From Kineosporia babensis (lineage in GTDB: Bacteria; Actinomycetota; Actinomycetes; Actinomycetales; Kineosporiaceae), in assembly GCF_021129305.1 (NCBI RefSeq), contig NZ_JAJOMB010000022.1, positions 1 to 64,000 on the forward strand: a stretch of DNA of 64,000 nucleotides, written 5' to 3'. A program made the translations under genes and the position numbers. Shown piece after piece: positions 49,649 to 54,282 of the stretch (the first letter of the stretch is position 1; the number at the start of each line of letters is the position of its first letter). The notes beneath the pieces were generated by a model, which had not been told where the DNA came from, did no database searches, and was given only the letters and a program-made list of their open reading frames with translations.

Positions 49649-50644
49649 TCAGCCTGCCACAGGCCGCACGTCTCCCGCCAATTCAGCTGCCAGATCGCCG
49701 GTTTCACCGGCTTGTGCAGCCGGTTTACCGAAGCGCCAGATGTACCCGACGAACACCGCCCAGACCACGAACCCGATCGCGATGCGGGCCCAGGTGGGCA
49801 ACGGGGACGGGGTCACGAACGCCTCGACCACGCCCGAGACCAGCAGCACCACGACCAGGCCGATCGCGATCGTCACCATCGCCCGGCCCTCCTCACCGAC
49901 CGCCCGGGCCCGGGTGCGGGCTCCCGGGTCGACCCAGGCCCAGAACACCTTGAGCCCGGCCCCGGCGGCGACGAAGACGGCGGTCAGCTCGAGCAGGCCG
50001 TGCGGGGTGATCAGGCCGAAGAACAGGCCCAGCCGGTCGTTCGCGGCCATCAGCCCGGCGGTCAGGCCGAGGTTGAGCGCGTTCTGCGCCAGCACCCAGA
50101 CCACACCGATCCCGGTGATGCCGAGGACGAAGCACAGCGCCGCCACCCAGGCGTTGTTGGTCCAGACCTGGACCGCGAAGCCCGAGGCGGCGTTCTCCGA
50201 GTAGTAGTTCTCGAAGTCGTTGTTCACCAGTTGCTGGATCTGCTGCTCGGTGCCGAAGGCGGCCTGCACCTCGGGGTTGGCGGCGACCCAGACCGCGACC
50301 ACGAAGGAGACCAGGACGGTCCCGGCCGTGGCGCCGAGTGCCCACCAGCGGGAGCGGTAGACGGCGGCGGGGAACGAGACTGCGGCCATCCGGGCGAACT
50401 CCCGCAGCAGCGGCTCGTTGCCGCCCGAGATCGCGGTGCGGGCCCGGGCCACCGTTCCGGACAGCCGGGCCACCAGGCCGGCGTCGGGTGAGAACGAACG
50501 CACCACGGACAGGTGGGTGGCCGCCCGCTGGTACAGCAGCACCATCTCGTCCACCTCGGCGCCGGACAGCCGGCGCCGCTTCGTCAGCCGGTCCAGCCGG
50601 TCCCAGTCGGCCGAGTGCACCGCGACGAAGGCATCCAAGTCCAC
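49649..50644 (-). CDS. Stage II sporulation protein M-like membrane protein
   Basis: 331 aa. Long cytoplasmic N-terminus (DEMVLLYQRAATHLSVVRSF), then helices at about 105-125, 165-195, 215-240, 265-285 and 295-315, with the family motif ITPHGLLELTAVFVAAGAGL. SpoIIM-like proteins in non-sporulating actinobacteria often lie next to RDD and MoxR-DUF58 genes; role unknown. GTG 50644 is only 10 nt from the end of the palindromic element at 50655, so its promoter must lie within that element. Confidence 0.9.
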   Translation of the reverse strand: MDLDAFVAVHSADWDRLDRLTKRRRLSGAEVDEMVLLYQRAATHLSVVRSFSPDAGLVARLSGTVARARTAISGGNEPLLREFARMAAVSFPAAVYRSRWWALGATAGTVLVSFVVAVWVAANPEVQAAFGTEQQIQQLVNNDFENYYSENAASGFAVQVWTNNAWVAALCFVLGITGIGVVWVLAQNALNLGLTAGLMAANDRLGLFFGLITPHGLLELTAVFVAAGAGLKVFWAWVDPGARTRARAVGEEGRAMVTIAIGLVVVLLVSGVVEAFVTPSPLPTWARIAIGFVVWAVFVGYIWRFGKPAAQAGETGDLAAELAGDVRPVAG

Positions 50645-50654
50645 AGCCCTGAGA

Positions 50655-50825
50655 CTAGGTCATGTTTTGAAGTTCCATGCCTACTGCGGGGCACCCGGGA
50701 CGCCATCTGACCGTGTCCGGTGGGGCCCCACGTAGAACACCGCTACGCAGGGCCCCACCGGCCACGCCCAGCCAACGCCCCGGGCACCTCCTCGCTACGG
50801 CAGCGAACTCCAAGACAAGCCCTAG
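50655..50825. mobile_element. 171-bp palindromic MITE-like element, copy A
   Basis: Bounded by CTAG at 50655-50658 and 50822-50825. The whole unit is an imperfect palindrome: outer arms read CTAGGTCATGTTTTGAAGTTC and, from the other end, CTAGGGCTTGTCTTGGAGTTC; the centre (50717-50761) is a near-perfect 45-bp palindrome with GGTGGGGCC...GGCCCCACC. Its reverse complement matches copy B (51788-51958) at roughly four of five positions and over the same length. It fills the SpoIIM-RDD intergenic region. CTAG boundaries recall elements of IS630- or IS5-type, which favour TA or YTAR targets; family membership is an inference. Confidence 0.8.
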
Positions 50826-50851
50826 CCGGGAAGACTGTCGGTGGCCCCACG

Positions 50852-50857
50852 TAGTCT
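50852..50857 (+). promoter_or_regulatory. Possible -10 element of a leaderless RDD transcript
   Basis: TAGTCT at 50852-50857 lies 7 nt before the GTG start at 50865, the distance expected for a leaderless mRNA. The sequence GGCCCCACGTAG that includes it (50843-50854) is also found inside both palindromic elements, at 50724-50735 in copy A. Confidence 0.35.
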
Positions 50858-50864
50858 GGTTCCC

Positions 50865-51791
50865 GTGATCACAGACCCGCTCGCCCCGCTGCCCGGCCCT
50901 TCGCCGGACCGCTCCGGCGCGACCGTCGCCGGGCTGGTCGGCGTCGACGAGCTGGACTTCTCCGACGAACTGATCACCGGCGAGGCGGTGGTCCTCGAAC
51001 TGCGGCCCGCCTCGTTCATCACCCGGGCGCTGGCGGTGGCGGTCGACGTGCTGGTCACCGTCGTGGCCTTCCTGCTGCTCTACTGGCTGCTCTACGCCAC
51101 CACCGGCGAGATAGACGCGGCCGCGGGCAGCGCGCTGGGCCTGGTCGCCTCCCTGGCCGTGCTGATCGGCATCCCGATCCTGGTCGAGACCCTCACCCGG
51201 GGCCGGTCCCTGGGCAAGTGGCTGGCCGGGCTCCGGGTGGTCCGCGACGACGGGGGTCCGATCCGGGCCCGGCACGCGCTGATCCGGGGCCTGCTCGCGG
51301 TGTTCGAGATCTACTGGTCGCTCGGGGCCATCGCCCTGGTCACGTCGCTGCTCAACAAGCGCGGTAAACGCCTGGGCGACCTGGTCGCGGGCACCTACGT
51401 GATCCGCGAGCGCCAGCCCCAGCAGCTTCCACCGGCCGTGCCGATGCCGCCGCACCTGGCCCCCTGGATCCGCAACGCCGACCTGGGCCGTCTGCCCGAC
51501 CCGCTGGCCCGGGCCTGCCGCCAGTTCCTGGCCCGCGCCACCCGCCTGACCCCCGAGGCCCGGCAGCGGCTCGGCTGGTCACTGGCCGGTCAGGTGGGCG
51601 AGTTCGTCGCGCCGCCGCCTCCGCCCGGCACACACCCCGAAGATTTCCTGGCCGCAGTCCTCGCCGAGCGCCGCGACCGCGACTACGCCCGCCTCTGGCG
51701 AGAGTCCCAGCAACGAGCCGCCCGCCGCGCCAGCCGCGCCGCCGCCAGCCCGCTGTCCTCCACCGGTTTCGGCCTGCCCGACCGCGACTAG
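50865..51791 (+). CDS. RDD family membrane protein
   Basis: 308 aa from GTG 50865. RDD domain with SFITRALAVAVDVLVTVVAF, two further helices, and GRSLGKWLAGLRVVRDDGGP and RHALIRGLLAVFEIYWSLGA; a 130-residue polar C-terminal tail follows. Function unknown; some RDD proteins act as Na+/H+ antiporters. The last codons use mostly C-ending codons. The stop TAG (51789-51791) lies inside the CTAG that bounds the palindromic element copy B, so the insertion may have set or kept the stop. Confidence 0.88.
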   Translation: MITDPLAPLPGPSPDRSGATVAGLVGVDELDFSDELITGEAVVLELRPASFITRALAVAVDVLVTVVAFLLLYWLLYATTGEIDAAAGSALGLVASLAVLIGIPILVETLTRGRSLGKWLAGLRVVRDDGGPIRARHALIRGLLAVFEIYWSLGAIALVTSLLNKRGKRLGDLVAGTYVIRERQPQQLPPAVPMPPHLAPWIRNADLGRLPDPLARACRQFLARATRLTPEARQRLGWSLAGQVGEFVAPPPPPGTHPEDFLAAVLAERRDRDYARLWRESQQRAARRASRAAASPLSSTGFGLPDRD

Positions 51792-51958
51792 GGAGTGTTT
51801 TGGAATGCGCCGCCGTAGGCGAGGAGGCGCCCGAGGTGTCGGCCGACGTGGCCGGTGGGGCCTCTCGTAGCGGTGTTCTACGTGGGGCCCCACCTGCCAC
51901 GGTCAGACGGCGCCCCGGTGCGCCCGGCAGTAGGCATGGAATTTCGAATACGACCTAG
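51788..51958. mobile_element. 171-bp palindromic MITE-like element, copy B
   Basis: Same length as copy A and inverted relative to it; bounded by CTAG at 51788-51791 and 51955-51958. Shared blocks include TTCCATGCCTACTGC, TCTGACCGTG and GTGGGGCCCCACGTAGAACA (read on the minus strand). The inner palindrome lies at about 51852-51895. It carries no ORF of its own. Together the two copies bracket the RDD gene. Confidence 0.8.
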
Positions 51959-52060
51959 GGCCAATGCTTTTCAGCTAAGGCCGAGTCTGGGCCTGTCCGC
52001 CCAGACCACGCCCCCGTCGGTCGGCCCGCACCGCGTCTAAGTAACGACATTGCGGCCAGG

Positions 52061-52165
52061 TCCGGTCCTGCGGATCTTTGCCTACTTTCGGGGCGCAGTC
52101 GGCCCGGTCAAGGTTCGTGACCACCGCATCGCGCCCGGCAAGGAGAAGTGGTCCCCGACCGCCCA
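52061..52165. repeat. Diverged direct repeat, unit 1
   Basis: Begins TCCGGTCCTGCGGATCTTTG and continues through GGTCAAGG and GACCACCGCA to a GTCCCCGACC block. Unit 2 at 52337-52440 has the same order of blocks (GTCCTGCGGATCTTGCCTAC, TGGTCAAGG, GGTCACCGCA, GTCCCGGACC) with small indels. Confidence 0.65.
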
Positions 52166-52218
52166 GGGCCGGGTGGGGTGGACCCGCCGACCGGGCGACT
52201 CGAAGGCGACTCGAGAGA

Positions 52219-52260
52219 GTGCGTAAACAAAGTGCCGCCAGAGACACTTTGTTCACGCAT
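52219..52260. repeat. REP-like hairpin 1
   Basis: TGCGTAAACAAAGTG (52220-52234) pairs with CACTTTGTTCACGCA (52245-52259) in 14 of 15 positions around a 10-nt loop. The block TGTTCTCGCCGGG follows, as after hairpin 2. No gene end is close, so a simple terminator is unlikely. Confidence 0.65.
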
Positions 52261-52336
52261 TGTCGTGTTCTCGCCGGGAAGCAGCTGGGGTGTGGAAGAA
52301 GCAAGGTCGGCGTGACTTTCAAAACACAACCTGAGG

Positions 52337-52440
52337 GCCCGTCCTGCGGATCTTGCCTACCGCGGGGCGGAGTTGATCTGGTCAAGGCGTGTGGTCACCG
52401 CACCGGGCATAGAGGGGAAGCAGTCCCGGACCGTGAGCGG
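52337..52440. repeat. Diverged direct repeat, unit 2
   Basis: Homologous to 52061-52165 as judged by eye over about 100 bp, and followed by the second hairpin in the same relative position as in unit 1. Confidence 0.65.
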
Positions 52441-52457
52441 TTGGGCGGGGACACCTC

Positions 52458-52504
52458 GATGATGTGTACACCTGGCACCAGATGCACCACCTTTACACAT
52501 CGCG
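52458..52504. repeat. REP-like hairpin 2
   Basis: GATGTGTA...TACACATC arms enclose CACCTGGCACCAGATGCACC. The sequence aligns with hairpin 3 at about 70% identity and is followed by TGTTCGCCGGG like hairpin 1. Confidence 0.65.
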
Positions 52505-52636
52505 AGTAGTTGTTCGCCGGGCTCTGTGCCATAGCACTGGAGTAAAGGCCGCGTGGGTGCACCACAGCGAGGGGGTGGCTCCGCTGGCCGGGCGCTGGTG
52601 CGGGCGATCAAAGGGATCGCGTGAAGTCGCCGGGCG

Positions 52637-52845: not shown

Positions 52846-54282
<1,437 letters not shown>

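Follow-up and report, generated by a model that had tools for sequence, protein, structure and literature searches.

We conclude that the two short palindromic elements flanking an RDD-family membrane protein gene in the 64,000-nucleotide stretch of Kineosporia babensis DNA analysed here (hereafter the window) are very probably non-autonomous MITEs of the IS5 family that inserted independently of each other, and that a joint function of the pair need not be invoked. This reading is supported by dispersed multiple copies, sharp borders, a repeated TA with a preference for CTAG, empty sites in relatives and IS5-like terminal repeats. Copy A (50658..50822, + strand; delimited from the letters, BLAST, an alignment of copies with their flanks, and folding) and copy B (51791..51955, − strand, inverted relative to A; delimited from BLAST, alignment and folding) are 165-bp palindromic elements with the same kind of ends, here called type 1, and lie 1.1 kb apart. 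Between them is the RDD gene (50841..51791, + strand; conservation in relatives points to a GTG at 50865 as the likely start), with a divergent SpoIIM-family gene on one side (49649..50644, − strand) and the adenosylhomocysteinase gene ahcY on the other (52846..54282, − strand). An earlier note, made from the letters of the window, had described A and B as similar, inverted and bounded by CTAG at all four ends, and this description holds: CTAG is present at 50655, 50822, 51788 and 51955, and BLAST aligns A with B at 83% identity across all 171 bp in opposite orientation, although for near-palindromes 'inverted orientation' has little meaning.

The same note took CTAG to be the duplicated target site, and here our reading differs. 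Only one letter of each apparent terminal CTAG, a G or C, belongs to the element itself; the others are the dinucleotide TA and a flanking C or G. In both A and B the mobile unit is the 165 bp that run from GG to CC between repeated TAs. These strandless repeats lie to the left of A (50656..50657; from the flank alignment and the relatives), to the right of A (50823..50824; from the relatives, whose unoccupied site reads GAGCCTAACC), within the RDD stop codon (51789..51790; the stop TAG is TA plus the first G of B) and to the right of B (51956..51957; from the letters and the flank alignment). The borders are sharp when copies are aligned with their flanks, and TA stands on both sides in 20 of the 30 best copies in the K. 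babensis genome, the other 10 lacking it on one or both sides; among copies in relatives it stands on both sides in 7/16, and the other nine have altered or degenerate borders. After removal of one TA, the 20 clean targets read CTAG (12), CTAC (2), TTAG (2), CTAT (1), ATAA (1), TTAA (1) and CTAA (1). Because a 4-bp CTAG duplication cannot give the eight targets that are not CTAG, the repeated site is TA, and CTAG is its preferred context (12/20 clean copies).

The search for further copies that the earlier note had proposed shows that A and B belong to a sizeable family. With the A unit as query, BLAST returned 49 rows at E ≤ 0.001 in the K. babensis genome (9.4 Mb, 89 contigs), which represent at least 36 separate large copies, the other rows being second-strand matches of the palindrome and short derivatives; the count comes from 40 scored of 113 candidates and is thus a lower bound. 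Family copies are found in 5/5 genomes of the same genus vs. 0/7 other genomes of the bacterial family, eight further genomes of the order yielded weak matches of 26–52 bp only, and the 171-bp element A had no match in phage or plasmid collections. The elements are short, non-coding, dispersed and multi-copy, encode nothing recognised and, as MITEs do, combine terminal inverted repeats (about 18–20 bp) with a target duplication. Short derivatives of about 50–110 bp that keep both ends and miss the full central hairpin occur in the K. babensis genome (L180–L185, L187, L191 and L195) and, in the same form, in two relatives (L178 in G005 and L179 in G002). The outcome that the earlier note had named as fatal to mobility, namely only two copies conserved at orthologous positions in distant species, did not occur.

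Comparison with the five relatives also bore out the expectation of empty sites. The order spoIIM–RDD–ahcY is kept in all five, neither A nor B is present there, and a profile of the family found nothing in these five loci at E ≤ 0.1. At the A site the relatives read GAGCCTAACC, where the window has GAGACTAG, the element and then CTAGCC. At the B site RDD ends in TGA in 5/5 relatives, whereas in the window the stop is made up of TA and the first G of B; the relatives therefore do not reveal the ancestral letters at this site. A third copy (C15:142890) is likewise absent from the syntenic place in all five, and none of 30 copies in the K. babensis genome shares any flank with the six relative copies that we compared. 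Because both sites are empty and the gene order is intact in 5/5 relatives, we conclude that A and B are mobile and that A, RDD and B do not form one unit.

Both insertions lie close to putative signals of the neighbouring genes. A TANNNT hexamer, TAGTCT (50652..50657, − strand), stands 7 nt before the GTG of spoIIM, and its TA is the target of A; a second TAGTCT (50852..50857, + strand) stands 7 nt before the GTG of RDD, and both are putative promoter elements. In all five relatives TAGGCT is found 6–7 nt before spoIIM. We take TANNNT before GTG to be the actinobacterial −10 box of leaderless genes; if so, A would have inserted at the TA of the spoIIM box, leaving the hexamer intact and putting other sequence in place of what stood upstream of it. 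Downstream of RDD, copy B and two longer elements, C and D (described below), occupy much of the 1.05-kb gap before ahcY; this gap measures about 146 bp in G003, 236 bp in G004, 282 bp in G002 and 287 bp in G005, and about 1.47 kb, without an element, in G001. Part of the G001 gap (L101, downstream of RDD) consists of short tandem repeats, GCGTTCGGC, where K. babensis has MITEs.

Across the genome, the 30 copies lie between convergent genes (11), between tandem genes (9), between divergent genes (2) or inside a predicted frame (5), with three left unassigned; these settings and the stop codons rest on gene calls by a simple codon score, and it was solely an upstream extension of spoIIM by the ORF caller that put copy A into the in-frame class. 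In 10/30 copies the TA is part of a predicted stop codon, vs. 6/608 TA sites and 2/14 CTAG sites in the window. The excess is strong relative to all TA sites of the window, but relative to CTAG sites we claim none, so that CTAG preference together with the loss of harmful insertions suffices as an explanation.

The part of the family that is unusual is the pairing of one core with two unlike sets of ends. The commoner end in the K. babensis genome is not that of A and B but a second type, GGGCCTGTCCTGYGGATC (type 2); pattern matches numbered 58 for type 2 and 12 for the other pattern, with 0 for both in the reversed-pattern control, and no IS-length pair of type-2 ends was seen in the genus. 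Between type-1 (n = 5) and type-2 (n = 18) copies of this genome, cores are on average 91% identical, left ends 55% and right ends 51%. Type-3 copies (n = 5) carry type-1 ends around a different core stem, with ends 86–89% and core 77% identical to those of type 1. For the trees, 7 rearranged or decayed copies of 53 were dropped, then 2 more, and finally 3 with unclear ends. The core tree needs three changes of end type (four with 44 rows), two of which are forced by starred branches, and 0% of 200 bootstrap trees need only one; however, a single clade of type-2 cores was not rejected by the AU test (p = 0.116). We thus put the number of end exchanges at one or more and, in view of the AU result, do not claim several.

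The hybrid-ended elements are more direct signs of exchange. Element C (52059..52331, + strand), which starts 100 bp downstream of B, is a longer relative in decay whose left end is of type 2 and whose right end is of type 1 (2/18 mismatches each); TA is missing from its borders. A mixture of the same kind (3/18 and 2/18 mismatches) is carried by L192, a rearranged copy. Element D (52335..52627, + strand), a dispersed repeat, is what is left of a longer relative and has a type-2 left end; its right end was not found. A second, longer non-autonomous family (window positions 52059–52627; L220, L225, L226, L227, L230 and L232) has ends of these same kinds and begins alike, with GCCTACTGCGGGGC, but contains another interior with a GTGTACAC palindrome and a AAACAAAGTG..CACTTTGTTT hairpin; a dozen or so copies were seen, with both borders in L220 and L225.

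Transposases with matching ends, which the earlier note had suggested looking for, were found outside the K. babensis genome. Within it, searches for DUF4096, DDE_5, DDE_Tnp_1 and Y1 families gave three DUF4096, two DDE_5 and six DDE_Tnp_1 matches, none with MITE ends and two at loci cut by contig ends. Among the DUF4096 and DDE_Tnp_1 proteins of the genus that we examined for matching ends, one in genome G003 (L085/L118) belongs to a 1070-bp IS with the borders CTA[GGGCGTGTTTTGTAAGTCG...]TAG. Relative to one type-1 (A/B) end, its borders CTAGGGCGTGTTTTGTAAGTCG and CTAGGGCGTGTTTCACAAGTGG have 3–4/22 mismatches on the left and 6–7/22 on the right, and in the other 14 DDE_Tnp_1 loci the best type-1 end match per locus has 5–7 mismatches of 19. 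The match to type 1 is therefore moderate on the left, where the border stands out, and weak on the right, where the border taken alone is no closer than chance matches at other transposase loci and has weight only because it is the inverted counterpart of the left one.

For type 2 the match is near-exact. In a class-wide draw of 394 genomes, K. babensis included, the type-2 end occurs at ≤2 mismatches in 59 (K. babensis among them). One of these genomes, G296, has two listed pairs of ends that span 949 bp with TA, and four fetched copies with both ends; the element is 945 bp long, has type-2 ends (2/18 and 1/18 mismatches) and sits in CTAG. All four G296 contigs stop at the element, as expected of a multicopy IS. 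Its transposase spans two overlapping frames (L143:622–1499), both of which match the same IS5 model. Scores against NF033580 were 235.8 bits for L085 and 127 and 144.9 bits for the two G296 ORFs (curated cut-off 110), which places both elements in the IS5 family; identity between the two transposases is 47% over one part and 44% over the other, and both elements show the 2-bp TA duplication (CTA..TAG). The earlier note had offered IS630 or IS5 as the source of a MITE family; the MITE and the IS5 alternative stand, and IS630 is the less likely source, both elements with like ends that emerged from the transposase families searched being of the IS5 family. NCTA/TAG surroundings and GG-starting repeats are also found in named plasmid IS5 elements from Rhodococcus (2/2 fetched), Streptomyces cellulosae and Corynebacterium efficiens, whose ends are 4–12 mismatches away from those of the MITEs. 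Of the six plasmid loci fetched, two (L237 and L239) had no such repeat among the TA-flanked repeats considered. A 20-mer from the core, run as an exact query against contigs, had no match; the L085 transposase picked out 108 pattern stretches, of which tblastn confirmed none. Either scan may have missed near records.

The statement that A and B are each an imperfect palindrome was upheld by folding. Folded as single-stranded DNA, A forms an end-to-end hairpin (z = −4.98) and B a hairpin mainly in its middle (z = −2.86), with 0/200 shuffles as stable in either case. In 28 of the 53 extracted copies, a predicted 41-pair structure is formed in 95.9% of cells, vs. 85.1% in shuffles and 32–49% in slid versions; 137 cells are changed on both sides (42 in shuffles), and 20/41 pairs show a two-sided change (12 in shuffles). 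The structure was derived from these very sequences, and the shuffles do not control for relatedness. Changes in the outer helix largely follow the end swap, and the inner helix has changes of its own (in types 1, 2 and 3 and in the G001 copies). Selection for the hairpin is thus no more than plausible, since paired changes of this kind would also arise if one arm were copied onto the other.

These observations bear on three other explanations. One, suggested in the earlier note, holds that A and B are the two ends of one composite unit around RDD that moves or inverts as a block. A transposase or recombination could in principle act on two similar, inverted copies at a distance of 1.1 kb, but the reading is very improbable: RDD is native, being syntenic and in the same orientation in 5/5 relatives that lack the elements, A and B each have their own TA repeat, and A (nearer to C7:75716, 93%) and B (nearer to C15:142890, 87%) are 17% different from each other. 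With 36 randomly placed copies, about 0.15 pairs within 1.13 kb are expected, and we regard the bracketing of RDD as a mild coincidence.

A regulatory reading, in which the hairpins were selected at these genes as bidirectional terminators, RNA stability elements or sRNA elements, draws on the excess of pairing and of two-sided changes and on the 11/30 copies between convergent predicted genes. We consider it unlikely, as the elements are absent from the same genes in all five relatives, share no flanks between genomes in the comparison above and give a single Rfam match (27.8 of 75 bits, far below cut-off); the further pair types are not above shuffles (42 vs. 39.6, with 71/500 shuffles as high), and the paired changes may stem from arm copying and, in the outer helix, from the end swap. 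Finally, a REP/BIME-like repeat moved by a RAYT (Y1 transposase) would also be palindromic, dispersed and largely intergenic, and the K. babensis genome does encode one Y1_Tnp protein; this explanation is the least credible of the three, given the sharp terminal inverted repeats, the TA on both sides of most of the best copies and ends like those of IS5 DDE elements, and we know of no target duplication in REP-type elements. The Y1 (RAYT-like) domain is a single one, in a 588-codon open frame (G000:C23:303160–303417).

For independent insertion of an IS5-type MITE, we envisage that a transposase supplied in trans would bind the roughly 20-bp ends, and that the bound element would be excised or copied and inserted at a TA, which would be duplicated. 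As both strands begin with G, insertion into CTAG would leave TAG on each side and could spare a stop codon, and because of this sparing, insertions at gene ends may be favoured to survive; B landed at the RDD stop. The inner 120 bp or so would be a hairpin passenger whose ends have changed, most likely through recombination between copies. A further idea, speculative and rather improbable, is that this core persists beyond the lifetime of any single transposase by exchanging its ends, that it has been carried by two separate IS5 systems with hybrid-ended copies as intermediates, and that its hairpin, being able to form a cruciform, may itself promote capture, recombination or transposition of the core.

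A bacterial MITE with TA termini and a stable stem-loop is nothing out of the ordinary. One of the closest systems is the IS5 family, IS427-like group (NCBIfam NF033580; Pfam DUF4096 + DDE_Tnp_1), with which the elements share GG-starting repeats, insertion in C-TA-G, the repeated TA and like ends; unlike the MITEs, which have only the ends in common with them, the IS5 elements encode a transposase within 945–1070 bp. We infer the IS427 group name of the partners from features, not from ISfinder; for most of the Paracoccus IS5/IS427 elements, 2-bp direct repeats are listed (PMC3281130). Correia elements, RU-1/RU-2 and Coxiella QMITE1/2 are likewise described as 100–400 bp long, with TA-terminal repeats, a stem-loop and mobilisation in trans, and variable ends around a conserved core are described for QMITE1 (PMC5896051). 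Our family differs in that two end sets were identified, for each of which there is an IS5 element with similar ends.

Streptomyces-size genomes (mostly group f37/g59) also contain MITE-length pairs of type-2-like ends, GGGCCTGTC(G/C)..GGATC in TA, around cores that by eye are unrelated to that of our family. Eleven such loci (L165–L175), from other actinomycete genomes of mostly Streptomyces size, hold elements of about 85–260 bp with different cores; several (L165–L171) share a GCAGCTG- or GCAGC-containing core, and the one Streptomyces-type element that was folded (L166) forms a long hairpin (z = −8.69). A literature search by text, by end letters and by both cores, with most subscription papers outside its reach, returned no description of our family or of the Streptomyces-type elements. 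We regard the family as new and its kind as already known: it shows the defining features of a bacterial IS5-family MITE other than observed transposition and a partner within its own genome.

The family accounts for several kb of non-coding sequence in a large actinomycete genome, and its GG-starting ends, together with the TA duplication, can spare stop codons, 10/30 copies lying exactly at a predicted one. It shows one small non-autonomous element bearing the ends of different IS5 lineages, and the exchange between two IS5-like end sets is the part that deserves specialist attention. Here is a concrete example of a way in which MITEs may persist after their transposase is lost.
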